Shown here one piece after another: positions 24,242-49,275 of a stretch of 64,000 nucleotides of DNA. This stretch comes from Tubiluchus corallicola. Its lineage: Eukaryota; Priapulida; Priapulimorpha; Priapulimorphida; Tubiluchidae. Location of the stretch: contig JAQGDQ010000217.1 in NCBI GenBank assembly GCA_030141605.1, forward strand, positions 186,001-250,000, read 5' to 3'. The notes beneath the pieces are model-generated. The model searched no databases and had not been told where the DNA came from. It worked only from the letters and a program-made list of their open reading frames with translations. The translations under genes were made by a program, and so were the position numbers. Every line of letters begins with the position of its first letter. Positions within the stretch are counted from its first letter, which is position 1.

Positions 24242-25015
24242 CTAAAAACAGCAACTATATATATTTATAAAATTGTCTGCAACTGTTTTGATTGCAAAAA
24301 TTTGGTTGGCACAATGGTACCCTTTTCGGAACCCTAATTGTTTATTAGTTAATAATTTCTGTTCTTCACGGTAACTTTGAATACGTTCATTATAAACTGT
24401 TGCGAACAGTTTACTCAGGCAGCTAGATACAGCGATACATCTGTAATTACTACGCATATCTGCGTCATCAGTTTTATAAATAGGCACAATATGGCTCTCA
24501 GACAAAATGCGTGGATATACACCAGTTGAATAAATCAGATTATATAATTTACATAAACTAGGTCCTATTAGAACTACTGACGATTTTAAAATTTCATTTG
24601 TTATAAAATAGTCTGTGCAAGACTTGTTATTGTTTAATCTGTTTACACTCTTATTGATTTCCTGTACAGTGAATATATAGTCAAGCTCAGAAAAACAGTG
24701 AGGTTCTTTCTTGAAAGTTTCTTCAATTTGAGGTATAAGCATCATTGGCAATATTGCTGTTCATAAGACTTTTAAAATAATTTAGCCATTCAGTAGGTTC
24801 AAATGGGGTTTTGTTATGTTTTGAATTTTTCTTCAGTTGTGAAATAGTATCCCAAAAGGCAGCAGGATTAGATTTTTCTAGATTTTTTAGCTGCCCGATT
24901 ACAGTTGATGTATATCGTCTCATAGTGGAACGTTGCAATTTCCTAAGTCTTTTTTTTAATAGCTGTTCTCTTAAAGCTCTATGGAAGGAATTTCTGGACA
25001 GCTTTTCATTTTAAG
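24242..25015 (-). pseudogene. Non-LTR retrotransposon fragment: linker and N-terminal reverse transcriptase
   Basis: Minus-strand frames encode a linker-like segment (NPAAFWDTISQLKKNSK) followed, after a frame change near 24735, by reverse transcriptase fingers: ILKSSVVLIGPSLCKLYNLI, then SNYRCIAVSSCLSKLF (the NYRPIA-type motif) and QLGFRKGYHCANQIF. The element stops before the catalytic palm, so no YADD motif is present, and no endonuclease domain is seen upstream. It is therefore a dead, truncated and frameshifted LINE. The clade was not determined. Related but non-overlapping RT pieces occur at 36183-36480 and 56750-57490. Confidence 0.85.
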
Positions 25016-28314: not shown

Positions 28315-31300
28315 ATGGAACAAGGAAAAATTTTGCCACTTTTAGATTCTAATCATGGAAGTGCCACTTCTAGTGAAGAGCAAGTTAAATTATTAGATGT
28401 TAGTAATAAAATCAGGCAACCAGAGATTGAACAAATTAAGCTTCTAGATGCTTTTGCATTGCCCACGGTAAATGGTGAAAAGGAATCTACTAAAGCTGAA
28501 ATACAAGATTCTGACATTCCTAGGCCTGTGGCTGTTAATTTTCTATCACGAAAAGTTACGAATGAATTGTCACAAGAAGAAGATAACAGTGGTAAAAAAA
28601 GTCGGTCTGTCAATGGCACAGCATCTAGTGACAAAGTGGTGGATAGGTGCAATCCTAAAGCAGTGGAAACTGATGATATTGTGCCGGTAACAGCAGATGC
28701 CAGTGACAATATTAATACATCTAGTGAAACCGAAAAGTTGACAGTAGATGATGACAGCGTGTCAGAGAAGTCTTTGGTAATTAACATGAGTGATGATGAG
28801 GAATCGCCTGATAATAAGGATGAGTCACTTAATAACAAGGAAGAAATTGATGCTGCAAATGAGAATAGAACGGAAGTTGTTGATACTGTAGATGGAAACG
28901 AGCAGGGAGATAAGGAAAACAGAATGGAATGTGCTAGTAGCTGTCTAGATGACGAAAATAAAAGTGAAAATGCAGCAGTTGTCGGTTCTCGGAGTACATG
29001 TGAAGATGGTGATAAAAAAGAAATGACACCAAATGTTGGCATTAATAAAGATAGCGCAAGCAGTTTTGCTACTGAAAAACAATCAAAACAGTTGCCCAGT
29101 GATTTCGCTGATAAATTAACAAAAGATATTTCAGACATTTTAAAAGGTGTTGGTAAACCCGGTAACAATAACGCTGCTGCCCAAGGTCTTTCTTTATCTG
29201 CAAAAGCGGACATTGAAGCTACGACTTGTGATCTTGAAATTAAAGAACAAGATGTGTGGTCAATTGGATCATTACCGTCTTTGAGTAAGATCAAGAAACC
29301 AAAAGGTATTATATACATATATATATTTTCAGTCTTATGTAGTATATTGTATACATGTATAGTAATATATGTGTATTATATCACTCTCAGTAAGGTCGAC
29401 CACAAAAAATTTCTATCTTACCTCATAAGCTCAAAAATGTCAGTAAGCAGGGAGAAATTTTTTTTAAAGCTTTATGAATGTTTAAAGCTAAAGCGTTTGT
29501 TTCCCACTGGCTAACAGTAATGTTTTAAATTTTTCAGTGCACTAATTTTATCGATTATCGCATTGTTTCTTTTTTATATTGTATGAGCATATGGTCTGAT
29601 AATTATGGTGTAAACGGCAACACTACTCTGCAGTTAATACGATAATTTGGCATAAAATATGATAATTTTTAACCTTCAATATGATAATCGGCATCATACA
29701 AAATGGCAACCTTTTTTAAGAGTTAGCTGTAGAAAAACATGGCTGCTCTTGCGGAAACAATGATGTTATAATAATTACTGCATTTTATATTTTAAATTAA
29801 AAAAGTATGCTCTGATATGACTGCACCAGGTAAGTATCCGAACATATGAAAAAAATATGTTAAAATTTCACATAAATTTGCAAATTTTGCTGATGCGTAT
29901 TTTCAGTTGTGGATAAATGAAAAAGAGATAACCTTGTGTCACTGCAGGCCCAATTATTAAAAGTTACGTTAAATTTAATTTTCATAAGAATAATTTGCAA
30001 ACTTGTACGTGGTGATTTATAAAGTGTCGGTGAATTGCATCCAAGATGTGTATCAGCATCTATTACCGTATACTTTCTCGCACTGAACTAATTGTAATTT
30101 AATATTTATTTGTTTCACCAACACATAAAATAATTACAATCAAGGTAACAAAGCTTACAGTACAATATCGTAGAATACAATAGCAAAATAGTTTTAACGT
30201 ATTATGTCAATAATGCCAGACAAACATTTAAGTTTTTAATAGAAAGATAGTAATGGACCTTTTCCCGTTAATTGTAATGATATGTGACGTCTTGCAGTGG
30301 CCTCAGAAAGCCGAAGCTTACAGAAAAGACCTGACAGTGAAACAGAAATTAGTTAGTACAAAAGAGGTGAAGGTGAAGTTGTCCCTAAGTAGTGACTGCG
30401 AAAAGAGGAGGACAGAAGGGGGAGAGGGAAAGATGATGCTATGTGATGTAACTAAGATTAAAATTAGCAGAGAAGTGCAGCATGAGACTTGCTGCAAAAA
30501 CAGAAGAAGATTAGCCTCACTTTGCATAATAGGAATAAGTGACAGGTATCACATGGATATTATTATACCGGTCTATTATTTCTTCCAGTATTTTTATGCT
30601 ATTCTCTTATTTATAGGAACTAAGGATATTCCTTTTAATACATCATTGAAAGCAAAACTACTTTTAGTTTCCTTAGCTAATTGTTGTATATCATTTCATG
30701 TTTTTGAGCCCTGGTATTTTATGAATATTAGTAATTTTTTCAATATTCATTCTACATAATGATATATAGAATTAATTGTACCTTGTGCTATAGCATAGAT
30801 TGTGACGGTTTTATTGGACTGTTACAAAAACTGTTATTATAACGAGCTTATACATATAAATAAGTAACTTAATTTTTACTATGTCATCCATGTTATAGCA
30901 CATTATGATTTCAATGATTAGTGTAGGCACTTGAATGTGTATAAACTGTCCCTGATGAGATCTTTATCATATAAATGTTTTGTAGCCAATCTGGATGTTC
31001 ATTTAAGATGACCTCTAAAAATGAACATCTAGATTGAGCAACTGGAGGCAAATATACTCTGCCGGACCCAATGCAAGTTTTTAGCTTTTTACAAAATTAG
31101 AGTCGGGTGAGGACAGGAAAATGCTTGCAATTACTCTACATGTTTATAATAGTAGAAAATAATGGTTTCACCTGTATTTTGCTTGTGAAATAACTAATAA
31201 TTCATATTCAGTGTTTCCTAGATTTCAATCATATGGCCTTTTCCAACATTGGTTCAAGTGGCAATGTCTTTCAAACTTTTGGCACTAGCAATTTCATTTT

Positions 31301-34300
31301 TTTGCTGTATGTTTCCAAAGCTTCAAGGCAATAGTATATGATTCATGTATTCTAGGGCAATGGCTGTTCTCATCTGTTATTTCTTTCCCACTACAAATGT
31401 TCACCGCACATGGTTTTTCGTTTACCACTCACTGATGGCCCACAAATGATCTGACTGGTCCCAAAAACTTCATCGAATATAATTCAACCTGCGTTTTCCA
31501 ATGATACTGCTAGCAAGGAGCAAGTTCATACTAGTGCAGATACCTATTGCTTAGTTTTTGTTAATAAGTTGTTACTTTGGTTCCAAAAGAGTGCTCTGTC
31601 AGGCACCTTCCAGGCCAGCCAGTTCTAGTACAGAAAACTTGGATACCACCTACTGGTTGAGGCACTGGGTTCATACATAGTACAATTGTAAAGCCCTTGC
31701 TGAAATCGCTTGACCATCATCATTTGTTTCAGTTTCATTTTTTCTAGCTCCTGTCTGACTTCTGAGTATCCCAAGTTCTCTCAGATCCTTAGTAATCTGT
31801 CCGGGTTATTGTTCACTGTTTAATAATTGAAGAGATGTAGCCACTTTTAGCTTTATTGGTTTTGCCCAAATTCTAAAATCCCGTCAAGCTGCATATGCAA
31901 TGCATTTTCTCGATGTTAACCATCATGGGCTATGATGCCTCAAAACCACAGATTTCAGTTGTAAACCCAAATCTTTCCCCATAAACACTTATTTACAGTA
32001 CTTTGTTCAGCAAAAAACATTAATCTGGCTCAGTTCAGCAAAATTATGTACTAATAATGTCTGGACTATTATTGTTGTATAGACTTTCTTACTTTCAAAA
32101 AGTTGCACACTAGTTGCACTATACCTTTCCCTTGGTTCTCTGACTTATTACATATCTATGCTAAACTAGGAGACAATTCAAAAATTATAAACTTTAATAC
32201 TATGAAGGTAGTCTTGCCATATCAGTCCAGTGCCCAGGTCACGTAGACTTGATTTTTGCCTTGATCTATAAACAATATCACTTAAAACCCAGAAATTTGT
32301 TCAGTCCTCACCGATTATATTGCAACAGATAAAGCAAGCACGCAGAATTTCGTAGCTTGACTTACTAACATTTTTGTGTGATGTTGTACAGGCCAACAAC
32401 AGTGGTGACGTTAACTAATATAAGTATTGCTATATTTCGCTAGGCCCTGCGAGACCCATAACTGTTACTTTATAAAATAGTTGAAGCACACACAACTCAA
32501 ATGTTTGTATAACCCTCTAACTGACATGCTTACAAACTCGAGATTTTAAATGATGATTGATGGTGATTTGTAACTACACTGTACCTATATCTAACTTCTC
32601 ATTCATAAAAAAGTTGTATGTGTTAGACTTGCCTCATTATAAATGTATGTGATATGATTGATATCCCTTTTTGATGTAGCTTTTGTAAACTCCATCATCT
32701 AGATAAAAATGATCAACACCTCTTATTTTGAGTATTTTTCAGCAAAGATAGTGGGTATAACAGACCTGTTTAAATGTATTTAAAAATATGCGTATCTTTT
32801 ATTTATTTTTTGGCAAAACTAGTCTAGACACTGTACTATGGGACTGCACATGTACTTAGAAAGTATTAACTATGCAACTCTTAGTTTCAAAATAACTGAA
32901 TGTACATGCATAATTATTGCAGCCAAGAAATCTTTTTCGCCATCTTCTCCTGCTTTAAATACCAGTGCTGATAGTCATGATGTCCAAGACTTTCCTAAAA
33001 CGAAGAAGCTTCGGACCGCAAGTCCAGTACCTGTAAGGCCAAGGCAGCAGGATGGATTTACCCCGGAACAAACTGCCTTACTCAAAGTACCCCTTGATCG
33101 GGGTGAGTATTATTACCTTGACTAAAAATTTTCTTTATGCTTTGATTAAGCAGCTCAGTTGTCCTTATCGTGGCCACTTTTGAGCAAATGAAAATAAGAA
33201 GGTATTTTGATATTCTAGAAAATCTCTCTAATATCAAAGTACCTCCTTATTTTGTTATTTAAAAAAATAATCAAGTCGAATTGTGAACTCTTAAAATATC
33301 ATGTTGTGCATTAATGCTCGAATAATCATTCAGTGCTTTCTTAACGTTTCAGTAAAAAACTTGTTGAATCTCCCTCAGTGCAGATATCGTGTTGCCCTGT
33401 AATACTGACCTGCATTGAAGATGAATAATCTCACCAAACTAAACTTTGCTGACATGATCATGAGCAATTTATGCACACTTTTCTGCGTGAAAGGACTGAC
33501 AGACAGAGAGAAACAAAACATACTTGATTTTGTCCTTTTGTCTTTTATTTATACATGTGTTAGCAAAACCTGGCGAGCTTCTGCCTCCTTCCTTCCCTCC
33601 CCTTGCATCTCTTTCTTCTCTCTTTCTCTCTCTCTATCTCTTTTTTCTCTTTCTCTCTCGCTCTCTCTCACTCATGTGTGTGTCTTTCTCTCTCACTTTC
33701 TGCCTTTTCTCTCTCTCACCTAAATGTATAGGCATTTTTTGGGATTTTCAGAAGACCTTCCACAGTGTATGGATGCCCTGCATGTTTTCAGTATGTGTAC
33801 AGAAATTGATGCAAATGATAATAAAGTTAAATATTAGTATGCCAGTAACAGTGTGTGTGAGGTTATTAGAAATTGTATTGAAGTGGTACTGTGACCGATT
33901 ACATTCCTGATGTTTGCTTTGAATATGAGTTATAAATTTTGCAGTGCAGACAAAACAGAACTGAGGTTATTGTTTTCAAAAGTGACCTCTAAGATGATGC
34001 TAGTTTACCTAATTTCCAGAGCTAATATTTTTTAATATCATATACTTCTTAAGCTTATAAAGGCCCACTTTTTTAGCTTAATTATAGGTAATAAAAATAA
34101 TAATATCATTTTGTTAGCATCGCATTTGAATTTTGCCTCTGGGCAGGTGAGATGTTTGCCTCTTCAAACATTCTCTACAGTTGCGACGTAGGAGCTGATG
34201 AGCCAGTTACTTACCTCCTACGTGTAAGTGCTGCTGCTTAGGTTTTACCTCCTAATTATGTTCTATAGTATTTATACTGTACTGTACGGGTTCTTTGTAG

Positions 34301-37300
34301 TGTGTTTAATTGCCCTTTCTAAGCCTTAAAACCTGCTGATCGAAGTTTACAGCTTGTGAAATGTTTATTTTCTAGTGTTTCCCATTCTAACCCATGCACA
34401 TTACATGAATTGTACATAATTATTATAGTTCATACATGATTTAGCTGGCCTATCAGTACAGTTTCATACAGTTTTTGAATCTGTATAAATCGGACAATAC
34501 CAGTAATTTGCAGACTGTTTTTTACGGGGATTCGGATTTTTGTGGACACCGAAGGAAAGTTTGAATTTTTGGATGTAAGCTTCAAAGCTAAAAGAGTCGA
34601 TATCATTACTGACCATTCAGTCAAGTTCTACCAATTCCGGCATAAATGGACGATCGAAGTCGCTAGGGAGCTTCGGGATCACACCTCGTTCCTTATCAAT
34701 TCCATCACAACAATATATGAACGCGCAGACTTTATCCTGTTGCAAGCGGCTCATAGCATGCGCTGTGATCAGCTTCGCAGGGCTATTTCCAATGTTCTTG
34801 TAATGATAGAGATCCTCCAAACATCCATGAGGAGCAGCAAAGACATCGGAGTACACTTGGTATTTGTGGACACAAAGACTGAAACCTGTAAACTTGTGAA
34901 CACGTTTTTTTACTTGTACACAAAAATCCACAAAGAAGGTGACCCCTGAAAAAAGATGTCCACAAATCCGTTTTGGCGTCCACAAAAATCAAGCACCCCG
35001 TTTTTACTCACGAGCAGTTTTACTGACACTTGTTTTTAAATCGAGAACAATCTTTGTGATCTTGATTCTGATTTTGCCAGCAAAAATAGTATTAGAATAT
35101 AGTTTTATAATAATAAAACTATAACACTATTGTCAAGATAAAAAATTCAAATTCTTAGATTATTAGATCACTGAATTATATTATTATTGTACATGGCAGA
35201 TAAAATAGTGTTAAACGCAGCTTCTTCAAACGCCACAACAATTTACAAGGAACCGACCGAAAAAAAGAAACTCGCCTAAAATAATTATAATTTCACGTAT
35301 CATGAAGCTCAGTGCTATACTTAGGTTACCCATTTAACGCACTTGTTTTCCAAATATTTGTCGCATACGCGGTAGTGCACGTGCGGTATATGGGATTGTG
35401 TGCTTAACCGCGCCAACCGGAATTTGGAAATGTTCTTGAAAGTGGCAACTCTGACGGTCGCCTTAGCAACGCTATCGAATGTGATAACTCGGTGGAAACC
35501 TTTTTGAAGTTGTGAAACCATCTAGTAAAATTTTTGTGATTGGTCAACGTTTTTCGTTTTCGCCAGTTATGATGCCCCTTTTATAATTATCAGACACTTG
35601 TTTTAAGACAACGGCCCAAGTTTCTGCTAGTGAATGTCTAGGCAAATTTCGCGGTTTTGTAAGGTTCGTGTGCGAACGTTTTGAGGTGAAATAATTGTGT
35701 TTTTTCTCTTATATATTTTTTGGAAGCTTGATAAACTTTAGCGTAAAACAAAATTAAAGGATACAGTAGTATTTCTAAAATTTCATAAATTCTTTGACAG
35801 CATTTTCTGTTTAACATACTATATTATAAGCTGCTATTTTTTCATAGATCTAAAGTTTCTATTAACTAACCATGTTTAAAAACAAAAAAGACTGTATATG
35901 GTCGAGCAAAGCGCTGTATTAGGCCTAGATTCATATTCATATCCAGTGTTTAAGGCTAGAGGTACATCCTTGGATCACTTATATTTTTTTATAGTTATAA
36001 TGCATGTTCTTCACTGGCATGATCTAGTGTGTGTATGGTACAAAGAATTTTTTGTGATTCCTCTCGCATTTCATATTTCTTTTGAATTAATTTATTGACT
36101 TAAATATTACAGTTTTGCTGCTTAAACCATTGCAGCTGTTGACTCCTCAGTTGCTGAAAGCGCAGTTTGCATACAGTTTGGCTCAGGGTCTGTAGAATTT
36201 ACTAGGATGACCTCTATTAGTAGCTGCATTCCTCAAAACGAAGGATTCCTCATCTAAAACGTTATTGATAATTAGCAAAACCTGAATCATGTCACTTCGT
36301 TGTCGTCTACGTTTTAAAGATGGAATATTTAATTTAGTTTTTTTATTTAATCCAAGTTGCTGAATGATGGAGCCAGCTTGGTAGCCGTTCGTTGAACCTC
36401 TTGTATAAGTTGAGCATCTCTTATAAATCTTGGTCCCCAAACAACATTAGCATATTTAGGTGTGGTCTAATGAGAGTTTTGATTATGTGAACAATCATTT
36501 CTTTTTATCATTTATCACTAAAACTTTTATCATTACTTTTCATGTTTTCATTCTCTAAAGTATGAACAAAAGTTACGAAAATTTGATTGTTAAAAAAGTT
36601 AAATTTCAAATAATTTGTATGTTTATAAAGTGCATTATGCAAATTGTTCCACATGATTTTCATTATTATCGCTGCCTGACACTGGGTCTCCATTATTATC
36701 TACTTCAGGATTCACCACTTCACCATTGTTATTCTCCTTTGCGACTTATTAATCTTATGAATCCGTGTTATAGTTGCTTAAAGCTGTCAGGTCATACATA
36801 ACGCAGTCACATCAAATTAGTCAAGATTATGTACCCGACACGTAAATGGGGTCACCAATATAAGTACGCAAATAAAGAGCTGTGAAAGCTTTTTCAGCCA
36901 ACCAAGAGGTCTATATTACACTCCTTGCCAAAGCAGTGGTGAAAATCTTTAACATATTTTCGTCCACCCCTGTCTCTTCTGATTGTTCAGTGCAAAACTT
37001 TAGGTTCTAGAAAAGTTGATATATGTGTAACATTAAATTATGTTTTGTCATTTCTATCTAATTCTATCTTTTTTGAAGTATATACTGTAAAACAAATTGA
37101 TGCTGCTAATCTGGACAATGTTGAGGAAAAGACAGTGGGCTTTCTTGTTACTGAGAACACTGTCAGCTGCCAAAGGCTTCATTTAGTTATCTTTAGTTAA
37201 AGGCCATTATTATGCTCTTGTCAGGGCTATGTAGAGTTAAAGTAGTAAATGTGCAATTGTTTTAGGTTGGAAGAGAATACTGTCTCATAGGTCTGGGGCA

Positions 37301-40300
37301 GCAGATCCAAAGATCAGAGCTGACGTATATTATTATACTCCACAAAATAAGCAGTTGGTATGTCAATTATGGTTTCGAGTTCTTGTCAGACCTGCAGATA
37401 TCTGATAATAGCAGCGAGTTCCAAAATGGAGCTCTATCTTATTATGACTTTTATAAGTATCGTTATTCTTTTTTTATTTAAGTTTTACGATTTAACTGTG
37501 TGCTTGTTAGGCTGGTCACGAGAATTTGTTTATCGAGCATATGCATCAGCTGAAAATGAAACAGTAGCCCAGGAGTTGAAGCTAAAGAAGGGTTTTGATG
37601 TTTATTATTACACCCCAGACAGAGTGAAATTGGTATAATTTTCAATTTTTTTCTAATTCTTTCTAATGTACTTATGTTTATGCTTTCTAAAATAGTTGCT
37701 TATCTAGCTAACATTGTCCTTTGCATTAAGCATTCTTTGTCTTAATAATTTCTTATGACATTTGTCATTACTAGTTTAATTGTAGAGCTTCTCGTTGGGT
37801 TGTATTATTTCTCCTCACTAAATTTGGAGGTTAACCTTTTTTAGAAGTACTCATTTTTTGCCAATTCTGTTAAAAACACTGATTCTGTTTACTAATAAAT
37901 TTTTGTTACTTTCGTCATGGAATTTTTTGATTGACTTTAACATTGTTTTAATCCAAAAGATTTGCACTGAAAAATAGAAAGTGAAATTTTCTCACTTGCC
38001 ATTACTAACTTGTATTAAGCACTGAACTACTGTTTCGTTTGCTTAACACAAATTCTGCCTATTATTTTTAAACGTGATAGTAATCAAGCCTTAAGGCAGG
38101 TATTGTAATTTCATTACAATACACCTTTTATTTAAGATTTGTAAGTCGCAGTTAAATCGTAAGCTTTATTTTGAAGTATTTTTTTAATTTTAAGCTTACT
38201 AATTTCCAAATATACGTACATGAATGTTCAACTTTCATAATAAAAGAAATTGCAAAAATGTGTTACACGTAAAAAATTTTACATGTAACACATTTTGCAA
38301 TACACACACGCACGTGCACGCACGCACACATGCATACACACACATTATATAATAATATAATACTGTTAGTAGCACCTCATAGTACGATTAATAACAAGTT
38401 TTAGGAATTTTTGCTTCTTTACCTTTTTTGACATTTTTTATTGTGTGTTTGCTCGGCTCTTCAGCTTATTATTCACTTTGGCAATTTTTTACAGTAATTT
38501 TTTTAACCAATTGCTACTACATGTAATTTAGTGATTTCATATAAATACTCTATAGTTGTCACTTGAACTGAAATGCACTTTGACACCAAACATTGAATTG
38601 TTTTTTTTATGTTTACTATTGTAATTGCCATTTTGATGCATTATTATGCTATGAATTACAAACAAGAGGAGTAGTCTGCATTTATTATAAATTTGTTAAA
38701 ACTATTAATATTTTGACTAATGAAATTTATTATATTTGCAGAGGTCCAATGTTCAAGTTGCACAGCATTGTAAGTAGTATATTTACTTTGCTTTTGCAAG
38801 TTCCAAAATTGTAATTCCATTAAAAAGACTTAAATGCACCTTATTAATAATTGTAAATGGAGTTCTATTCCAATGTCATTGTAATTACATATAAATTAAC
38901 TGTAGAGATCATTACACACTCCGCACATGAGAGGCTTCCATGCACAAACACGAGTTACTTAATTGTGTTTGTATTACCTTTTCCATCTTAATATTACTGT
39001 TTGTAATTTTTATAGTGCAAGAGGCTGGTATTACCAATCTAACTGGTGCAAATTTTTCGTATGGAAAATTTTTGATTGGGCATCCAAACGAGACTGAGCG
39101 ACATGCTAATCCTGCTAATAGAGGTGCACCATTAAAAGCACTTGTAAGTCATAATTTGATGTTTGCTTAGTTGCCTATGAAAGAAAATAATGAAGAGAAG
39201 ATTAGTTTCAAAATGATGATCAAATGGCAGTGCTGACGATTGTGGCAGCTTTGTTTTTTTCATGCTTTTGAAAAATAGTTTACCCACAGTTTTTATTTGC
39301 AGCATGCTAAAAACAACAGTACACCTTTGAAGAAATATAAGAAGAAGAAAAAGATGAGTTCTCCGCTGAAATCGCCTACTGCGGCTCAGCAGCAATTACC
39401 TGCAAAATCTGCGAATGATTCTCTTCCTGTCACAGACCACTCATACACTGCTTACACGCCAACTGTGTTTAAAGGTCCTCTTAAAATTAAATTAAAAACT
39501 CCAGGTAGTGCTTCGGCAGTCATTCAAAAATCAGTGCAGCGTAAACCTCCTGCACGAGCAGATGCTAGCATATACCAAAAAGCAACAAAGGCGTCATACA
39601 CCCCATTTACTTCTACAGCTAGTTCAACTCAGTCAAAAAATTTACATGATGCTTCACCGGAAACAATGCGTCCTTTGAAGTTCCAAAAGGCTGTTAAGTC
39701 TTTTCCTAAATCTAAAACAGACGTGACCCAGAAGGCTGTGAAATCCTTTTCGAAGTCTGGAATAGAGATAATACGCCCTAAGACGTTCCAAAATACGCAG
39801 AAAGCCGTAAAATCATTTTCTACTACCCCCGTACAGACCACCAGTTCTTCACATACTAGGTATGTTTGTTTTAACTGAATTTAATTACTCCTATTTTAAT
39901 TTCTTTGCATAACTGATGATTTATGCTATGAATAGATATTAAAGTTATTTTATGTCATCTATTTATGTGCAAATTAACACAGTCGGATTTTTGTCCATTT
40001 TTAAATTACTAATTTATCTACAATTTATTCTTAGTTGACCCTGTTTTGTTTCTGTTTATAATGCATGGCTTTCCTCTGATTGCTTAAACAGAATAAAACC
40101 AGTGGTCATACAATTGATTTGCAATAATGAGCAATGCAGTAAATCACTAGAATCACATATGCTTGCTGGCATCTTTTTGATTTTTATCTAAAACCGGGCG
40201 GTAATGGCACCCGCTAATATGCTTCACAAAAAATTCAGGAAAACTATAAGTGTTGCTGTCACAAAGCTCCACCAGAACCGAGCTTCGAAACGAATCCGAG

Positions 40301-43300
40301 TCGGAGCTTTGATTCGATCCGATTTGTTGAAGCTATTTTATTTCCTAATTGATTTGGTAGAGTTTCTTTTTTAATTTTGCTTAGCTTCGGCTGCAGAGGC
40401 AATTCAGTAGCATTTTGTTACAAAGAATTTTATACAATCTTTCACCCTTTATTTTTCGGAAGTTTTTTGTCCTACTTGAAATATGCCAATGTCACCACTT
40501 TCAGTTTCACCTTGTCTAACTCCTGAAGTCCAAGCACACACCACATTACGAGTTAAACTGCTAGTTTCAACAAAAATGATAAAATTCCTTGTATTACTTT
40601 AACTGAATGCTGCACATAATGTGTTTTACCGAACACGGTTTGATAACTACTCACAGTGTTATTGTAGAATTCTGTCAACCATGCTGCTCAGACTAGAGTA
40701 AAGCTGGACCAATCATTTTATTTATGATTATTCACAGTACATTTTGTCAGTTACTCTCAGTTACAGCAAAATGATCTGTTAGTCACTGGCATTTGTTGCA
40801 AAATAACTAGATCATAGTTTTTTTTATTGCAAATCATGCTGCTTAGATGGGCATCTGTAGAAAAAGCAAAACGTAAAATAATGTCTGCTACATTTCCCTG
40901 TTATAATCCAGGGGCTTCTAATAGTTACATGGTTTCTTGTGTATTTATAGTACAGTGACATGCTTTCTTGCATTTTTATACTACAATGATATTATAAATG
41001 TGTTAGATTCTGTGATTTTTACTACTGTGTTGTTTTTTGCGAATTTTATTTACTCTGTGATTATTTTCATTTGCTTGTATTTTTAGTGAATACCTAGGTA
41101 ACAAACTCCAAACAGAATTAGTATTTTGTGATTGTTGCAGTTTTTGTTTTTCACCTGTTCAAAGGTAATCCATGCTGTGATTGTGATTTGAAATGTCTTG
41201 TACCTTTTTATTTTCTTTACTGTGGCATTTTTTATTAATTGTGGGCCAACATATTCTTGTGTTTAGAAATTATCTCCATGTTAGGAAGACTGTATTTTTG
41301 TTTGTAATTTTTAGGTTAAACACCATAAAGGATGTGTCTTGTAGCATTTCATGTCTTGGACGCAATGGGGCTTTCCCCAGTTTACACTGTGGTATTTGCC
41401 TGGCTTTGTTTCACCCGGAATGTGTAGGCTTAACTGGTAAAGTGCAGCCTGTTTTTGTGTGCGCGGTAAGTGTCTCCAAATTATTGTTGTTACATAAAAA
41501 TAATGTTTGCAGAATCATAGAACTGTTACAGTCAGTTCGATAAGCATATACAAGTAATTATCAAATCCTTTAATTTTTGGTGTCCTAAGTAATTTACCTA
41601 TATAGTTTAAACACATTTAAACACAGTTTTTTCACTTTCAGAAATGTTTACGCGATCATAGTCATGTGGGTGGTAATGTTTCAATGGCAAATAAGTGGAA
41701 TGTTCAGTCAGCCTCCAAACCAGTTTCCACTTCGCCTGTTACGCCGCTTACAAGTGGCCATTTTGCAACAACAGTTGCGGCTCCTGTCTCCCCACTCACC
41801 AACCTTCCGCCTCCTCCACCATTGAAAGTGGGTGCTGCTTTTTCCTTACAGACTGTTAGAACTTCTGGTTCTGTTCATCCAATGAGACCACCAGTTTTGC
41901 AGTCAAGAAACTCTATACCTTCAGCTGTTACATTACAACATGTAAGGCCTCCAGCTCTCACCCAAGCGACAAAACCGCCAATGCTGACATCAGTTACGTC
42001 TCTTGGTTCACCAGTGGTTGCTGAAGCATTACCACAACTGACACCTCGGCCAACTCTTTCCACAATTTCACCAGCTACTTCTCCAAAAGTTGTTTCTGTT
42101 GCGACTTTGAATCAGGTATGATTTTCAGTTCATTATTTTAATTTGCTTCACATAGTTTTTTCTGATTAATTCAAAATCAAATCAAAGGCATAAATATTAA
42201 GTTAAATTTGTATAAATTAAATAAATTTTGTAATTTGTGTTAAGAAAGTGATGTTCTTATATTTTTCAGACTCCAAGGTTTTCTCAGTCGCAGCCAAATT
42301 TTGTCTTGCAGCCTAACCAGAACTATGTGGTTCAAAATGGTAGGGTTATAACGGGAGCAGGAAACATGCCTGGCACTATGTTTTTTTCTAATCCAAATCC
42401 TGTTCGCCCTGCTGTACCGGCGGTAGCATTTTCTCTCCCTTATACACTGGCAACGCCCTCTTTAACTCAAACGGTGCCTGCAACCAATGTCACTTCTAGA
42501 ATACAGACACATATGACGCAACCACAGAGTAGTGCTGTACCATCAATGACTGTCTCTATAAAAGTACCAAGTAATGGACCTGCCACTTCAAAAGCTCTGT
42601 CATCTGTTGCTCAGCAACAAGTGCCTAATTCTAGTGTTAGGCAGAAAGAGAAATTCAGAGCGAAGCGTTTAGGTGTTAACCCAGCTGCATGCCATATACA
42701 GAAGCTACACGCAGGTTACGATGTGCTCCTGCATGTGTTCTATCATTTGAACTATGCTGATCTGTTACGAGCTAGCTGTGTTTGCCGAATATGGCACAAT
42801 GTAATAAAGGATGCTTCTGTGGTAAGATGATTTACGGTTGTTGCAGTTTTGTTCGATTCTAGAGTTAAGGAAACTTACAAAGTAAATTTTAATGTGTTAA
42901 AGTCTCGATTTTTGCTGTACAGCTTAATTGTTGGAATTTTTTTCAAATTAGTTAAGAATGGTACAGTGTACAGCTTAGGATCTCGGTTGTGCATGATTTG
43001 CAAAAACTACGTCTCATATCCAAAAATACAGTTTCGGTCAGTTTAAGACCATTTAAGATCAAAAGTTAGCCTCGGAAAATTTAAAGCCCCCTAATGTCAA
43101 AGTTGCATGGCTGGAGTTATAGAACTTAATCGTCAGAAAAATTGTGCTTTTGCAAAATTTCCCAATTGGAATTACTGCTTCTTTGCACAGTACTTTTTCC
43201 ATTTCAGTGGAGAACAATTCGTTTAAAAGATTCCAGTTTTCGTAGTTGGGGTGGATTACTTAGACGAATGAAGAAGTACAATACAGTTCATTTGGTATGA

Positions 43301-46300
43301 AAGTCGTATATCGTTTATTTGTCATATACATTTGAGTTGCATGCTGTGGTTGTTGCTAGTGCTGATATTATCTTTTAGCTGTAAAAATTCGACAGGTAAA
43401 AAGTTACTAGTTTATTTTCATTTTTAGGATTTCCAAGATGTGAGAATATTGACGAACCCACCTAGCATGCTCTGGCAAGCTGTGCCAGAAATTATAGAAT
43501 CTGCTCTTAGTTTGAAACGCATTAACTTTGGAAAGGTATGTTGCATTCTATAAAGTAAGAGTGTCAAAACTGAGTATCTTTTGTGCTGATGATGTGACCA
43601 TATATTTATAAAATAGGATAGTTGGAATAGAAATCTTTTTCACTATGCTAGCTTGATAGCTTCTAAGTAGGATTTTGCCTTCACTCTGCATTTTCTCATT
43701 TATCAGTTTTACATGGTGGTAGTATGCTTTCGCCTATATTGTAATATATGAGTGTTCTTTCTTGCTTATAATGCAAATTCTAAATGCGGTTGTGGTTTAT
43801 TCATAAATTTAAGTCGCAATTTCAGTTTTTTTAAAGTGGTTTTCATAGTGCCCAATTGTTCTGAATAAATACCAGACTTAGTCGAATTAGTGAATACGGA
43901 ATGGCAACACTTTAATTTGTATTATATCATAGTTGTAAACCAGTGGTTCCAAAACTCATTATCTCGTGACTCAACTTCACTGTGCGAGATGAAACTGCAA
44001 TCCCTTCTGAGTGCACTAACTACACTGATCAAACTAAACATCAAAATGCGTTCATCAAGCTTGATTATCTTTTGTTAACTGTATTTGTTTGCAAAGTTTA
44101 TTTATTACATTAGGGCTTACGTTTAGGAATTAATTTTACAGTTCGTTAATGTGACGAATGGGCTTGCTTATTGCCCGAGACCAGCATAATCGAGTTCAGT
44201 GTTGAACAAAGAGATAATTACAATATGTTTACTTTCCAGTTTCAGTCGCTTTCTCTTAGTTTTCACTGTGCCATCATGGAAAATCCTCTCAACATAGATA
44301 GATAATTTGATGGCTAAGTACTTTCAGCATTTTGATTGCTCTTTTTGACAAATGACTGCAAAACTGCGATCAAATATTTTTTTTCTGACTGGCCAGAAAC
44401 TCCACAAACTATTCACACAACACAGTTTATACAAAGTTAATACTAAACTGAACGAGCAGATTTACACTCGACACATTGTAGATATACAGAATTGCAAACC
44501 TAAGCCTAAGCCTAATAAGTATGAATTTTCTTACTTGGGAGAGCCCTTTGGCTTATTAACTGTAGGACTGTGTTTGATTCGTTTGCACCTTGCCAAGAAG
44601 CATTCGCGAAATGCCAAAGCCGGAAAATGCTACTTCTTGGTTATTTCGGAAAGGCTCACAACTCATTGAAAAGTGCCTTGTAACTTTAGGTTTGCCAACC
44701 ACCATTGTGAATGAGTTACTTGTTAAACATTGATTACGAGTTCGAATACTTGCATTTTTTTATTTTTTTTAATTTGGTAGTTGTGAAAAGTTGAAAGAAT
44801 TGCACAGTTCAAAATGTTATTCATTTTGCAGGTTCCATCGTCAGTTTTGTTGAAATTTGTTTACTCGCCCAGCATATGTAAACAGTTGAAAGAATTGACT
44901 GCAGATGCAATCATAGAAAACCCAGATTCGACAGCAGCTTGGTATGAGCATGTACATTAAGAACGTGTAGTTGTGTGTATTTACGGGAAACTAGCTGAGT
45001 TGAACATACTTTGCTATATAATTTTCATTTAGAACAGCTGGTGCTTTATATCTTACGATTTATAAGATGACTGGTAAAGGTAGAAGGGAGAATGAAAGGG
45101 AGGAGAGTGAGATTGAGGGGTGAGAGAGGCAGTGAGGGTAGGAATGGTGCAAGCAGCAACTTGTGAGTGAATTGCAAGAGGGAAAGATAGACTGCAAGAC
45201 AAAGAGTAATTGTTTACCTGAATAAAATCGTCCAATTGTCCCAATGGTTTTTTTAGGTGTAATGTGATAAAGTTTGATATTGGAAAGTTTAGCAATATGC
45301 AAAACCTGCAGGAGTTGAAAATTCGAGCCCTAACAGGAATGCAGTCCCCTTCTTTCCAATTCAGTGGTGGGATGGAGGTGCTGCCATCTTTAAAGCATCT
45401 ACGAAAATTGGTATGGTGTTACTATGCTGTTCCGCTAATTATGCTTTTGCAAAAAGTGTCAGTGTTTGTGTATTGTCAGTCAAGAATCTTCCATACTTTT
45501 GCTTTATAGATTAGCCACATTTCAAATTTTCATGACAAAATACTAGGGTTTTATTGTAAATTTTTATCTGTTATGTGGCTTGTGACATTATAGGGCTACA
45601 CTTGTGTTATAAAGAAATTAAGGTCATTCTAGTTATTGTTTTTCTGTTGAAATAGATTTTTTGTTTTAATTTTATCCCATTTCAGAATTAAAATAAATTT
45701 GCATTATATTTGTTAATTTATTTATCTGTTTCTCATATTTTATTTTTTTGGAGAGGATGTTTAGTCCATAACTGCAATGTAAATTATATTGTCTTGCTGT
45801 TATCTGCAAATCTATCATGATAGATTTACTACTAACAACCATTTTTTCTGTTCCAGTCACTTACGAATTTAAGAGATATTCGTGAGCAAGAGTTCAGTTT
45901 TCTAGGCGAAATGTTAGAGTTGGAATCACTAGAGCTGGGTGACTGCCGAACATGGAGCTCAGAAGTATGTGAGCTCTTGAACTTTTATCTGATCTGCAGC
46001 TTCTTAAGGCAGTGTTTTTCAACCAGTGTGCCGCGGCACGCTGATGTGCCGTGAAAGATCATCAGGTGTGCCGTGGGAAATTATCTAATATCACCTAATT
46101 AACCATTGTCGGGGGTCTGTGCTGTAATAAACTGTGGCCGATAATGTAAAACTCTTTTATTTCAGTGGGTGGCAGCAGAGAGCGATAAATGCCTGTAAAG
46201 TCAATAGAGTTAGTGTTTATGTACAGCATCATTACTTGAAATATACTTGACTCTCAAAACACTGCGGGATTGAATGATAAACAAGAGAATTATCGCTGTT

Positions 46301-49275
46301 GTATGTTTGCTTAGTAAATTCGTATACAGTTTACTTTGAGCACATAACTGGTTTAGATATACCATAGTTTAGGTTTGCTATATATACAAATGTAAATGTG
46401 TTGCGGGCAATCAACCACAGACAGCTTCATTAATATAGTAAGTTTTCATGCTTCTTTAGAACTATCAATCGACTTGATCAGGCGTAATTGTAGGGCCAAA
46501 GAATTATACAATTTGGAGGCAGGAGACGTGAACGATTATGTGACTAGCCTGCTACGTGAGACTTCAAGATTTCACCACTTTCTGTGCTGACGCATAAGTC
46601 AGAATGGTCACGTGACCGCCTATTGTTTCAACACGCACGTGTCTGTAAATGGTGGTGGTGCCCGAGGATTTTGGAAATGTAAAAAATGTGCCGTGGCTCA
46701 AAAAAGGTTGAAAATCACTGTCTTAACGGGTTGTCCACATACAAGATTTTGGGTCGTTTATAGAGTATTGTAAAAAATTGACAGATGTCTTACAGTGACC
46801 TCATTAGGCAAACGTATCGTTTCCTTTTCTTTTTGAGTAATTCAATAAAGTTCTTGCTGTTGAGCATTCACCATTTTTATTTTATTGTTGTGATGCAGTT
46901 GGCTAAACTCTAGTGTTTTTTGGCTAATTGTTGAATATTCTTACATTTGTACATACTTTAACTAACATGGTTTCTGTACTGTGGCAAGAAAGTTATTTTT
47001 TTAATCAAATTTAGCATTTTTTTGAGGATTAAAATAACGCGGACAGTCTGATAATTTAAAACTATGCGATCTAATTGTAGAAATTGAATCTTATTTTTGT
47101 ATTGAACAAATATTTGTGTTCAAAGTTCAATTTGTTTGTAATTATTTTTCCGATAAATTTGAATTCACAGCAACATTGCGTAACATACACTTTATTTACA
47201 AGCACATGTTATTTCTTTTTGCCCTAGCAGTCAAGCAGTTATCGAAATCATTCTGTAATGACTACAATGTTTAAATTGGATTGTATCTAAACAGCTAGTT
47301 TATTTTATGATTATTGCAAAATTCTGCCTGCTCACTGGTTGCTAGACGTGATCATGTTTCTGTGAACCATCCACCGCATAAGGTTCACCACCAGTTGATT
47401 TTTATAGTGCATAATCAATTTTTTATCACATATTTATTGGGTGATATATCATCTATTATTTATTGTTAGCCACAATCATTTATTGTTTTTTACCAGTAAA
47501 GAGTGAAATGTATAACTGTGAACATTAAAAGTTAAGAGTGGGAAAACATACTTGTGAAACAGCATGTTTAAATTCCTCTTTGGTGGGTGTTACTTTTGTA
47601 GGCTTATAGCAGTTTCTGTGTAAATTTTCATTTGGATTTAACTAGAATTTTTAAGCTTTGCCCGACACTATTTAAATCTCATTTCATAACATTTTAAATG
47701 TTTTGTGTTGTTCCGTTATAGTGTGCATTTGTAAATACATATGCATTCTGAAAAAAATACTTTACACTGATATTTAAGAAATAATTCACTTACTTTTGCA
47801 GACTTATTATGAACTAGGTAAGCTGGTGAAACTCAGGCATCTCCACTTGGAGGCAGGAGGAGAGATTCCTGACGTAGGACTTGCAGATGCCATACACAAC
47901 ATGCATGAGTATGTATCAGAGTCGTCTGATAATCCTCTAAAACACTTACTGTCAGGAGATAAAGGAAAATTATAATATGTAGCATTTTAAGGCAGCTTTT
48001 GGATGTTGAATGTTTGTTTACATGCAAACAGTATCAGGTTAGCAAGCTAACTGAATATTGTGTTCAAGCTTTCATATGTAACTAAACCTTGTACACACCA
48101 ATTTGTAATGAATACAGTGAAATTCGTGTATTGATATTTCAAACAGCTGTTCTATGCACATAACGCACCGAGAACTAAACAAAACAGTACGTCCTCTCAG
48201 TGAGTCTAACTATATATGTTTTGGGAAAATTTCAATTAGACACTAACACTGATTGATATGACAAGAGGCTGTAGGCAAATTTCTTTCGTAAAAATTTTGC
48301 ACTTTTACGCTTGCAGTCAAGTAGGGTAAGGCGCAAATGAGTTGTGCGCTTGATAGAGACACAGTTTTCAGCAATTATCAGTCGAGAGACAAAAACATTA
48401 ATATCGTGCGCAGTTTTATTTTACTAGCGGGATTTTTGAACAGATTAACATAGCAAATAGTATTTTAGTGCTTCATATTAGGCAAAAATGTTGATGTTAA
48501 AGTAAAAACTGCTTTGAGCAAGTCAAAAAAGTCGTATTTAAAATGAAAAAAGTTGGCAAATGTTCAGCCTCGTTGAATTGAAATGTCTCTAAATGGAGTG
48601 TCGTTAAGTGATGACACAGCGCTTTTATTATTTTTTCTATAAATTAAGAGTTGATGTCTTTTCATTCCAGATTAGCGACCCTTGAGCTCATTATGTTTAC
48701 AGTACCAGACACGTTGATATCTGTGCTCCCTCAACTTCCAAATTTGCGTAATCTCAGCATATGGCCCGATGTTGAACAGGTAAGTAATCGCTCAGCGTGT
48801 TCTACTAGATGTAAAATTTAATTATTCTCTTGCCTGATATACATATCTATGTACTGGTAGTTGTTAAAAAAGTTATTGAAAATTGTTTCTCTGCATATTT
48901 TGTGTTGTAGATATGCATTTTTCATGGCATTCAAAAATATTTCATTGATGCTTATTTATAATGTTCATCTATATTTTTCAGGCTGATGTCATTAATACAA
49001 ACGTCTTCTGTCTTGTTATGTGTTTGCCAAAACTGAAACGTTTTGACTGGGGCGTGGCTTGTGAAACCGACAAACTGGGGCAGCAGACAATTACTGCGAT
49101 ACCTTTTCTTCCCTTAAATGAATGGTCTGTTCCAAACATTCCGGGTTTGGCACTTGGCCGGGATGCAACCACGATGTCCGTTACCCAGCTCATGGAAAAT
49201 CTTTGCCCGGTTTTACCGAAGACAAAGATTCGTGTATTGCGAGTTCCAATCGTGAAGTCACCAAAGACGAAATAA
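28315..49275 (+). CDS. MBD-PHD-F-box-LRR protein with alternative MBD exons
   Basis: Exons: 28315-29305, 32923-33102, one of 37266-37357 or 37511-37632, 38742-38769, 39016-39143, 39303-39859, 41315-41465, 41642-42115, 42270-42821, 43208-43294, 43428-43535, 44832-44941, 45257-45410, 45857-45964, 47802-47908, 48671-48779, 48982-49275. Phases agree throughout, giving 1,409 or 1,419 aa. Start context AATCATGG is strong. Order by residue: acidic Ser-rich disordered region 1-330; MBD about 390-450 (DRGWKR, DVYYYTP, RSNVQVAQHLQEAGI); Lys-rich linker with three QKAVKSF repeats; PHD-like C/H finger about 663-713; Pro/Thr/Ser-rich linker; F-box about 1005-1055 (ADLLRASCVCRIWHNVIKDA, then SVWRTIRL); LRR-like repeats to the end. 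F-box proteins recruit targets to SCF ubiquitin ligases; MBDs bind methylated CpG; KDM2/FBXL19 have CXXC-PHD-F-box-LRR. A methyl-CpG-targeted SCF adaptor is my inference. I do not recognise a named orthologue. Confidence 0.87.
29306..32922 (+). other. First large intron of the MBD/F-box gene
   Basis: AT-rich intron without a domain-bearing exon, apart from the candidate 54-nt cassette at 30298-30351. The long open frame at 30253-30759 is not gene-like beyond that short stretch. Confidence 0.5.
30298..30351 (+). other. Candidate in-frame cassette exon (18 codons)
   Basis: Preceded by GTGACGTCTTGCAG and followed by GTTAGT. Read in the phase left by the exon ending at 29305, it encodes ASESRSLQKRPDSETEI flanked by split codons. 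It ends in the phase needed by the exon at 32923. Its length is a multiple of three and it contains no stop, so it could be skipped or included freely. The composition fits the hydrophilic linker. No independent conservation evidence. Confidence 0.4.
33583..33721 (+). repeat. Polypyrimidine (CT)n-rich tract
   Basis: About 140 bases dominated by CT and CTTT units, with a short GT run inside. It gives spurious Ser/Leu/Phe-rich open frames. It is far from any exon in this intron. Confidence 0.85.
34525..35000. mobile_element. TIR element enclosing an unidentified open segment
   Basis: The left end CGGGGATTCGGATTTTTGTG (continuing GACACC) is mirrored by a right end whose reverse complement is CGGGGTGCTTGATTTTTGTG (continuing GACGCC). 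The same TTTTTA is found directly outside both ends (34519-34524 and 35001-35006), a plausible 6-bp target duplication, though low in complexity. The interior is less AT-rich than its surroundings and has long open frames on both strands (34542-34949 plus, 34617-34985 minus) with no domain I recognise. Further GTGGACA-type motifs near the ends suggest subterminal repeats. Confidence 0.55.
36183..36480 (-). pseudogene. Non-LTR retrotransposon RT C-terminal fragment
   Basis: Minus-strand frames, with breaks, read segments typical of the region after the LINE reverse transcriptase palm: an IRPH...ANVVWGP-like stretch, APSIIQQLGL-like residues, then KLNIPSLKRRRQRSDMIQV, matching the common KLNLPSLKYRR-RGDMI-VYKI pattern. 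It is short, frameshifted and without catalytic residues, so a dead fragment inside an intron. Confidence 0.75.
37266..37357 (+). other. Alternative MBD exon a
   Basis: Preceded by GTGCAATTGTTTTAG, followed by GTATGT. Entering in phase 1 from the exon ending at 33102, it reads GWKRILSHRSGAADPKIRAD then VYYYTPQNKQL, and exits in phase 0 to the exon at 38742 (RSNVQVAQH). This is the beta-sheet and L1 half of an MBD. The Arg of GWKR corresponds to MeCP2 Arg111, the Asp and first Tyr of DVY to Asp121 and Tyr123, and the Arg of RSN in the shared exon to Arg133. The DNA-contacting positions are therefore kept. Confidence 0.88.
37511..37632 (+). other. Alternative MBD exon b
   Basis: Preceded by AACTGTGTGCTTGTTAG, followed by GTATAA. 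It also enters in phase 1 and exits in phase 0. It reads GWSREFVYRAYASAENETVA, then QELKLKKGFDVYYYTPDRVK and a final L. It is ten codons longer than exon a, with all the extra length in the L1 loop between the two conserved strands, which contacts DNA in known MBDs. Splicing a to b shifts the frame and reaches a stop within exon b, so the two exons are incompatible in one coding mRNA. Confidence 0.88.
38249..38301. repeat. Near-perfect palindrome (hairpin)
   Basis: The left arm ATTGCAAAAATGTGTTACAC continues GTAAAA. It pairs with a right arm whose reverse complement is ATTGCAAAATGTGTTACATG, continuing TAAAA. There is essentially no loop. The RNA would form a stable stem of about 25 bp with one bulge. 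Confidence 0.85.
38303..38346. repeat. CA/CG-rich microsatellite
   Basis: An alternating purine-pyrimidine run of ACAC, GCAC and ATAC units directly abutting the palindrome. Alternating purine-pyrimidine DNA of this type can adopt Z-form. Confidence 0.85.
39860..41314 (+). other. Intron before the PHD exon
   Basis: 1.5-kb AT-rich intron without a recognised exon or element. A short GATTCG/TCGGAGC-rich patch near 40265-40330 stands out by composition only. Confidence 0.5.
43941..44707. mobile_element. Possible hAT-like element (weak)
   Basis: The left edge CAGTGGTTCCAAAACTC resembles the CAGTGGTTCTCAAAC start common to hAT elements. About 0.77 kb on, GGTTTGCCAACCACCATTG resembles an inverted partner. 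The ends match only partly and I found no 8-bp target duplication. An open frame at 44352-44669 has no recognised domain. It lies in the intron 43536-44831. Confidence 0.3.
45058..45205 (+). repeat. Purine-rich (GA) tract
   Basis: About 150 bases dominated by G and A, ending about 50 bases upstream of the exon at 45257. Low-complexity composition; no coding role seen. Confidence 0.65.
46010..46720. mobile_element. hAT-superfamily non-autonomous element with target duplication
   Basis: The left terminus CAGTGTTTTTCAACC is the inverted partner of the right terminus GGTTGAAAATCACTG, with one mismatch. Immediately outside are TCTTAAGG (46002-46009) and TCTTAACG (46721-46728), an 8-bp duplication with a single difference, the hallmark of hAT transposition. 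Subterminal repeats of the GTGCCG type (GTGTGCCGCGGCAC, GGTGTGCCGTGGGAAATT left; AATGTGCCGTGGCTC right) resemble hAT families known from vertebrates. At 711 bp without a recognisable transposase or BED finger it is non-autonomous. It sits in the intron 45965-47801 of the MBD/F-box gene. Confidence 0.88.
48320..48615 (+). mobile_element. Possible third, partial copy of the 61269-type MITE
   Basis: The right part reads TTGAAATGTCTCTAAATGGA then GTGTCGTTAAGTGATGAC, similar to the right end of the 61269-62130 element. The left part is not alignable by eye, so this is tentative. Confidence 0.3.

Follow-up and report, generated by a model that had tools for sequence, protein, structure and literature searches.

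Tandem-duplicated exons that are spliced in a mutually exclusive manner are described as pairs of neighbouring homologous exons that share a phase and encode the same stretch of one domain (PMC5740500, PMC9741552). Insect Dscam and the exons 3 and Ab of U2AF1 (PMC5224494) are examples, and pairs for which double inclusion breaks the frame form a recognised class among them (PMC5740500). The gene presented here likewise has two adjacent homologous exons, A and B, of equal phase and for the same protein region. Judging from the sequence, the pair probably arose by tandem exon duplication and is probably spliced in a mutually exclusive way, so as to swap the DNA-reading half of a methyl-CpG-binding domain (MBD) in a likely SCF-ligase subunit. 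What sets it apart from the other pairs named is that the exchanged segment would be the part of an MBD that contacts DNA, half of the domain.

In MBD1, alternative exons affect the CXXC fingers. A survey of human mutually exclusive exons names an MBD1 cluster, in a passage that is silent on its place in MBD1 (PMC5740500), and the remark of the earlier note that it knew of no described MBD protein of this build therefore needs care. In a review, the splicing events tabulated for the methyl readers MBD1-5 and MeCP2 are skipped exons, retained introns, a flop exon and alternative ends; swapped MBD exons are absent from the table (PMC10968829). The terms "MBD" and "BAZ2" are absent from the main text of PMC9741552.

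The window, meaning the whole 64-kb stretch of DNA analysed, holds an MBD gene with 17 exons per transcript and consensus splice sites. Its frame is open with A alone (1409 aa) or B alone (1419 aa). Gene model, frames, domain matches and retained residues were read directly from the DNA, as was the complementarity described further below. The features are:

28315..29305, + strand: exon 1 (coding from ATG), N-terminal part; open frame, donor AAAG/gtatta, phase chain
32923..33102, + strand: exon 2, shared, leaving in phase 1 at 33102; the MBD has its N-terminal edge at the last residues, LLKVPLDR, which align with LRIPLEYGW in BAZ2B
37266..37357, + strand: exon A, N-terminal half of the MBD, short L1 loop; frames, Pfam MBD, shuffles
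37511..37632, + strand: exon B, N-terminal half of the MBD, L1 loop longer by 10 residues, donor and acceptor weak; frames, Pfam MBD, shuffles
38742..38769, + strand: exon 4, shared, entered in phase 0; RSNVQVAQH with the second DNA-contacting Arg; frames, alignment
39016..39143, + strand: exon 5, shared, C-terminal part of the MBD; frames, Pfam MBD
39303..39859, + strand: exon 6, linker; gene model
41315..41465, + strand: exon 7, first part of a PHD-like zinc finger; gene model, Pfam PHD below cut-off
41642..42115, + strand: exon 8, remainder of the PHD-like finger plus linker; gene model
42270..42821, + strand: exon 9, linker and most of the F-box; F-box-like, E 4.8e-11
43208..49275, + strand: exons 10-17, end of the F-box, leucine-rich repeats, stop TAA; gene model, Pfam
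43208-43294, 43428-43535, 44832-44941, 45257-45410, + strand: exons 10-13; gene model
45857-45964, 47802-47908, 48671-48779, 48982-49275, + strand: exons 14-17; gene model

Exon A (92 nt; translation GWKRILSHRSGAADPKIRADVYYYTPQNKQL) and exon B (122 nt; translation GWSREFVYRAYASAENETVAQELKLKKGFDVYYYTPDRVKL) are both entered in phase 1 and left in phase 0, with acceptors and donors at homologous places. Coordinates, phases and motifs agreed with the earlier note for both exons in the frame and gene-model check, as did its statements that each exon works alone, that skipping both breaks the frame, and that the shared exons provide the second Arg (RS, exon 4). The ten extra residues in the L1 loop of version B were also recovered, GW and Asp being 19 residues apart in A, as against 29 in version B. 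Equal phases follow automatically from duplicating an exon with unlike end phases, and are thus not separate evidence for regulation. A search of the window in six frames for a third copy of the exon found none, the next best hit having E 1.2, and by eye no U12-type donor was seen among the sites of the gene.

Both versions matched Pfam MBD above the cut-off of 21 bits (A 44.3 bits, 1.3e-11; B 42.7 bits, 4.5e-11). Either exon with only the ten shared upstream residues was still above it (26.9 bits for A, 25.1 for B). The downstream half of the domain alone gave no Pfam MBD match, nor did any of ten shuffled exons (five of A, five of B). The resemblance of both exons to an MBD thus exceeds chance. 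Among solved structures, the best match of both versions was BAZ2B (TAM domain), followed by MeCP2 for A and MBD3 for B. The Pfam MBD is common to the family (MeCP2, MBD2/3, BAZ2), and alignment with MeCP2 showed that A and B share residues with it: Arg, Asp, Tyr and Arg-Ser are retained in both. In BAZ2B the Asp and Tyr are missing, and its domain reportedly does not favour methylated DNA (PMC10783490). Methylated CpG is read in the MBD by two Arg and one Tyr (PMC5240623), and all three are present in both versions by the MeCP2 alignment. The genome encodes DNMT1, and the CpG observed/expected ratio in the window is 0.61. The interpretation of the earlier note, that splicing could switch CpG recognition, affinity or sequence preference, is thus partly supported, namely as regards a duplicated exon and two complete MBDs with the methyl-CpG-reading residues, in a genome with DNMT1 and a CpG-depleted window. 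The longer L1 loop of B should change or weaken the contact with DNA.

Across the 21 ungapped codons, 12 residues are identical, and 7 of these codons differ only synonymously; the loop, with 10 codons in A and 20 in B, is not part of this count. Differences by codon position were 10/5/11. Constraint on the two copies was assessed by combining identity over these 21 codons, open frame and intact AG/GT, with divergence assumed to be equally shared between them. Neutrality of one copy over its whole branch was improbable (P 0.005 with B dead, 0.003 with A dead), which argues against only one exon being used and the other being a recent relic that still looks intact. The combined P rose to 0.028 and 0.016 when one copy was dead for three quarters of its branch, and to 0.14 and 0.08 for half of it. 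The test weakens if one copy died recently: values for neutrality over half or a quarter of the branch (0.08-0.39) are compatible with such a loss, and the weak donor and acceptor of B also fit a relic. B nevertheless keeps Arg, Asp and Tyr and lies at least as close as A to the paralog encoded in the genome (11/21 for B against 9/21 for A), and we regard a relic as unlikely. A first version of the test, with P 0.00012, was superseded by the branch-fraction test because it allowed the whole divergence to be neutral, which is too generous.

Position weight matrix (PWM) scores differed between the exons, at 4.6 for the donor of B vs 11.7 for that of A, and 0.1 vs 4.2 for the acceptors. The B acceptor at 37511 scored below 14 of the 15 constitutive acceptors, in a matrix built from only 15 introns. 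Two acceptors in the intron between A and B scored clearly above it, 37483 (6.9) and 37415 (6.8). The B-only frame is also open, with a longer exon, from 37412 and 37415. The site at 37483 defines one further feature:

37483..37510, + strand: possible in-frame 5' extension of B from acceptor AAG/37483, which would allow A and B together; acceptor and frame

AAG is a poor acceptor triplet. The pyrimidine tract of 37483 (15/17) was the richest compared, the 15 constitutive acceptors having at most 13. The earlier note held that using both exons runs into a stop. This is true via 37511, but when 13 AG sites were tried as the acceptor of B, with the stated donors, two (37432 and 37483) left A plus B open and in frame, so that "frame-enforced" is too strong a term given the in-frame acceptor at 37483. 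B could then be a cassette added to A, giving tandem N-terminal halves of the MBD of which the second forms the domain. The high score and pyrimidine content of 37483 and its frame with A fit such a cassette, as does the A+B peptide, which reached 60.8 bits summed over two MBD stretches. Set against them are the poor triplet, the homologous acceptor place, which is 37511, and the natural N-terminal edge of the MBD at PLDR of exon 2: joined directly to exon 2, B scored 42.7 bits, and 38.3 with the linker from 37483, 4.4 lower. An unpaired half-domain would also be unusual, and with 332 of the 8010 AG/GT combinations tried in frame and open (~4%), one such path is unsurprising. We consider the cassette quite improbable.

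A role mainly as a productivity switch, in which double inclusion or skipping is unproductive and the two proteins are functionally equivalent, would fit the stops produced by A plus B via 37511 and by double skipping, and also the same reading residues in both exons. The divergence of the exons (12/21 identical, ten additional loop residues) exceeds what a pure switch needs, and this role appears highly improbable. Mutually exclusive splicing of A and B is the preferred reading. Steric exclusion is unlikely to enforce it, since the intron between A and B (153 nt) is longer than the smallest constitutive intron of the gene (133 nt), and some other mechanism would be needed.

A candidate mechanism is pairing of the B acceptor region with the intron downstream of B, as an RNA switch. 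The two are complementary over 14 perfect nt (predicted -27.1 kcal/mol), within a predicted helix of 25 pairs and two bulges that is without covariation support:

37480..37506, + strand: left arm of the predicted long-range helix, over the B acceptor region, perfect core 37485-37498; pairing prediction
38142..38166, + strand: right arm of that predicted helix, located in the intron that follows B, perfect core 38149-38162; pairing prediction

Among seven region pairs, the A-B intron with the downstream intron was the only one outstanding in both length (P 0.0025) and energy (P 0.0035; 2000 shuffles); exon A with the downstream intron gave P 0.01 and 0.45, respectively. For the helix itself, P was 0.0025-0.0035 by two controls and 0.043 by a third, whose background was not matched for G+C. 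At the sensitivity of the search, the region 38060-38240 around the right arm had no match elsewhere in the genome, and thus gave no sign of a repeat. Docking/selector pairing for A was rejected, the best pairing of the downstream intron with the final 1 kb of the upstream one being 11 nt (P 0.10 for energy, 0.60 for length). A separate long-duplex scan of 10 region pairs picked out one, the start of the upstream intron with the start of the intron after B (z -3.1, 0/60 shuffles). The regions of that scan did not include 38141-38199, hence the helix reported above lies outside it.

Within the exons scanned upstream of the PHD-like finger (the end of exon 2, A or B, 4 and 5), the domain found was the MBD. 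Exon 7 matched Pfam PHD with E 0.0046 and 17.4 bits, not reaching the cut-off of 24. The F-box-like match was above its cut-off (E 4.8e-11), LRR_4 passed with 28 bits (cut-off 27), and LRR_14 had 36.5 bits, below its cut-off of 40. The encoded order is thus MBD, PHD-like finger, F-box, leucine-rich repeats. KDM2/FBXL19 proteins carry a DNA-reading CXXC finger, followed by a PHD finger, an F-box and leucine-rich repeats. The order from DNA-reading domain to repeats is the same here, with an MBD at the place of the CXXC finger in the exons scanned. Searched against solved structures with E of 0.01 or less, the F-box/LRR part hit six distinct sequences, five named SKP2 and one named cyclin A/CDK2-associated p19; none of the six was named KDM2. 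The paralog (C1330, L001; 35% identity over the alignment) encodes MBD, PHD-like finger, F-box and LRR in a single ORF; it differs from the A/B gene in that its homologous part is uninterrupted by introns and its MBD comes in one version only. No orthologues were found in one scan each of the prokaryote and viral contig collections.

From these data we infer the splicing, its regulation, a binding difference and a ligase role as follows. A tandem exon duplication would have provided the MBD with two N-terminal halves that can replace each other. Exon 2 would be spliced to A or, through 37511, to B, and either then to exon 4, while transcripts that lack both exons, or carry both via 37511, would meet early stops and be destroyed. 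A is probably the default, because of its stronger splice sites. B would be the one under regulation, its inclusion perhaps being suppressed by pairing of its branch-point region to the downstream intron. Both proteins would keep the residues for reading methylated CpG, with the DNA contact altered or weakened in B by its loop. The F-box points to a role as substrate receptor in an SCF ubiquitin ligase, which would be recruited to methylated chromatin. The more specific idea that the long-range helix over the B branch-point region switches the MBD half of a chromatin-targeted SCF receptor, with A a tight reader and B a weakened or re-aimed one, is doubtful at present.

If both versions are made, one gene would provide two methyl-DNA readers on the same effector body, and a natural matched pair for testing the role of the L1 loop in recognition. 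It would also connect an F-box protein with a methyl-CpG reader, in what is probably an invertebrate animal, and such a reader would go beyond the single MBD2/3 with which invertebrates are described in PMC5240623.

The gene in the window lies on the plus strand, from an ATG at 28315 to a TAA at 49275. It was modelled by hand, with 17 exons per transcript linked by phase and consensus splice sites. The model encodes 1409 aa with exon A and 1419 aa with exon B in its place, and it is open throughout in either case. The two adjacent homologous exons and the neighbouring genes are:

37266-37357, plus strand: exon A, 92 nt
37511-37632, plus strand: exon B, 122 nt
456-761, plus strand: end of the neighbouring ATG2 gene
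11431-11700, minus strand: RasGEF_N exon of a neighbouring gene, SOS-like by eye
52205-53035, minus strand: neighbouring ARMT1-like gene

Reverse-transcriptase-like open frames were seen by eye at 24242-25010 (minus strand), and one of them (24242-24760) had no Pfam match at E 1e-3.

The anatomy of the duplicated exon pair is real. As the earlier note proposed, the frame is preserved with A only or with B only, and both skipping the pair and joining A to B at 37511 lead to stops. The equal phases of A and B arise because the duplicated exon has ends differing in phase. Any duplicate of this kind would show them, so they are no proof of regulation on their own.

With the shared flanks, the Pfam MBD model scored 44.3 bits for the A version and 42.7 bits for the B version (cut-off 21), and each exon with only ten upstream residues scored 26.9 (A) and 25.1 bits (B). 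The shared downstream half by itself gave no Pfam MBD match, and ten true shuffles of the exon portion produced no MBD match, one of them giving an unrelated match (E 0.17). The top solved relative of both versions was the BAZ2B MBD (A 1.6e-6, B 6.9e-4), which lacks the Asp and Tyr that both retain. CpG is read by two arginines, and methyl selectivity comes from a tyrosine (PMC5240623). In an alignment with MeCP2, A and B each have the first Arg as well as the Asp and Tyr; the shared exon supplies the second Arg, as the earlier note had it, and the Ser.

Over 21 ungapped codons, A and B share 12 identical residues, 7 of them with synonymous differences, and differ 10, 5 and 11 times at codon positions 1, 2 and 3. 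Constraint was modelled with one copy freed and the divergence split equally between copies. For a copy unconstrained since duplication, the observed identity alone was reached with P 0.06-0.08; identity combined with no stop and intact AG/GT had P 0.005 if B was the dead copy or 0.003 if A was. The latter values rose to 0.028 or 0.016 for three quarters of the branch, 0.14 or 0.08 for half, and 0.39 or 0.26 for a quarter. A long-dead exon is thus unlikely, one of the two may be recently dead, and both look functional. B matches the paralog, a related gene on another contig, at 11/21 positions and A at 9/21, and B is no more distant than A.

Mutually exclusive splicing of A and B is the best reading of the sequence and a fairly probable one; against it stands an in-frame acceptor at 37483 (AAG before the exon), 28 nt 5' of B. 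This site has pyrimidines at 15/17 positions, above the maximum of 13/17 among the 15 constitutive acceptors. A joined to 37483-37632 is in frame and open; the earlier claim that A plus B breaks the frame holds through 37511 and fails through 37483, and its junction list lacked 37357-37483. Double inclusion through 37483 would give two N-terminal MBD halves linked by FYDLTVCLL, a product scoring 60.8 bits across two MBD stretches. However, the homologous acceptor position is 37511, and the PLDR ending the shared upstream exon 2 is a natural domain edge worth 4.4 bits (42.7 vs 38.3). With the modelled donors, 2 of the 13 AG sites tried for B made A plus B open (37483 and the poor acceptor 37432). 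Open paths made up 332 of the 8010 AG x GT combinations tried for double inclusion, so one such path is unsurprising.

Weight matrices built from the gene's 15 other introns gave exon A stronger sites (donor 11.7, acceptor 4.2) than exon B (4.6 and 0.1). Three acceptors in the A-B intron outscored 37511, namely 37483 (6.9), 37415 (6.8; pyrimidines 7/17) and 37390 (2.5), and exon 2 joined to 37412 or 37415 also stays open via a lengthened B exon. Simple crowding is an unlikely cause of exclusion, because the A-B intron (153 nt) is longer than the gene's smallest (133 nt).

Mutually exclusive splicing may have a candidate switch in the RNA. Positions 37485-37498, just 5' of B, are perfectly complementary over 14 nt to 38149-38162, which lie in the intron following B (P 0.0025 by length and 0.0035 by stacking energy; 2000 dinucleotide shuffles of the region pair, seven region pairs tried). 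The extended duplex (37480-37506/38142-38166) has 25 pairs, two bulges and -27.1 kcal/mol, the strongest among 16 of the 17 gene acceptors, compared likewise, with A's own next (-22.4). Its P was 0.0025 against 800 G+C-matched positions and 0.043 against 1500 unmatched ones. In a fold of 37240-38340, 37489-37498 pair at probability 0.99-1.0, but the pairing is not maintained in the flanks: 37485-37488 form it at only 0.10-0.36, and 37480-37484 and 37501-37505 favour other partners. A genome search with the right-arm stretch returned only the self-match at the sensitivity used. With its arms paired, the helix would hold exon B in a loop and mask the likely branch-point region of B (TTTAAC, picked out by eye). 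RNA structures that compete with one another are known to make splicing mutually exclusive (PMC6071210, PMC8042237), and the helix over the B acceptor region is a lead of this kind. The same intron carries a 20-bp near-perfect hairpin (95%) at 38255-38296.

Searches combining mutually exclusive exons with MBD/BAZ2, and MBD with F-box, found no MBD built in this way among the titles and abstract openings of the matches listed. In the parts consulted, a human survey names a mutually exclusive cluster in MBD1, its position within MBD1 not being stated (PMC5740500), and a review's table of methyl-reader splicing holds no swapped MBD exons (PMC10968829).

The longer B loop noted earlier is confirmed: GW to Asp spans 29 residues in B and 19 in A, compared with 20 for the paralog and 18 for MeCP2. 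Fly MBD2/3, in which a DNA-facing loop carries an insertion of 20 residues, the C-terminal helix has a deletion and two critical residues are altered, is reported as apparently unstructured and unresponsive to DNA (PMC5240623). Its loop is, we infer, the one lengthened in B. By this analogy weaker or altered DNA binding by B is plausible, although B retains the critical residues.

Beyond the MBD follow a PHD-like finger (Pfam PHD E 0.0046, under the cut-off), an F-box (E 4.8e-11) and leucine-rich repeats; the F-box/LRR part matched Skp2 among solved chains (1.7e-4). The layout resembles KDM2 and FBXL19, which carry a CXXC finger where this protein has the MBD. The paralog has the same layout in a single open frame, with 35% identity across the alignment. 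At least five loci in the genome carry an MBD, these two genes included; further MBD exons, by eye, are BAZ2-like (C1923) and MBD2/3-like (C2239). The paralog and the DNMT1 gene lie at:

C1330:127500-132500 (L001), ORF 1159-5001: paralog with MBD, PHD-like finger, F-box and LRR, intron-free in the homologous part
C2195:384500-389500 (L005), ORF 628-4977, minus strand: DNMT1, 1449 aa, single open frame

Ahead of the paralog ORF, inspection by eye showed an acceptor-like TTTCAG together with a C2HC-like finger; the first 87 residues of the ORF had no Pfam match at E 1e-3. It looks like an old retrocopy fused to an upstream exon. Several chromatin genes of this genome seem to lack introns; long single open frames are present in two genes that are, by eye, SETDB1-like (L002, C877; 904 aa in the stretch, in a 1028-aa frame) and DNMT2-like (L007, C714; 414 aa). 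Cytosine methylases at L006 (C1479) and L008 (C2335) lie on contigs that are bacterial or phage-like by eye, probably contaminants or symbionts in the assembly.

The DNMT1 of this genome has RFD, CXXC, two BAH and methylase domains. CpG observed/expected in the window is 0.61 and TpG 1.26, and CpG depletion with TpG excess is the usual trace of CpG methylation. Since DNMT1 is encoded and the window is CpG-depleted, a reader of methyl-CpG would probably find targets in this genome.
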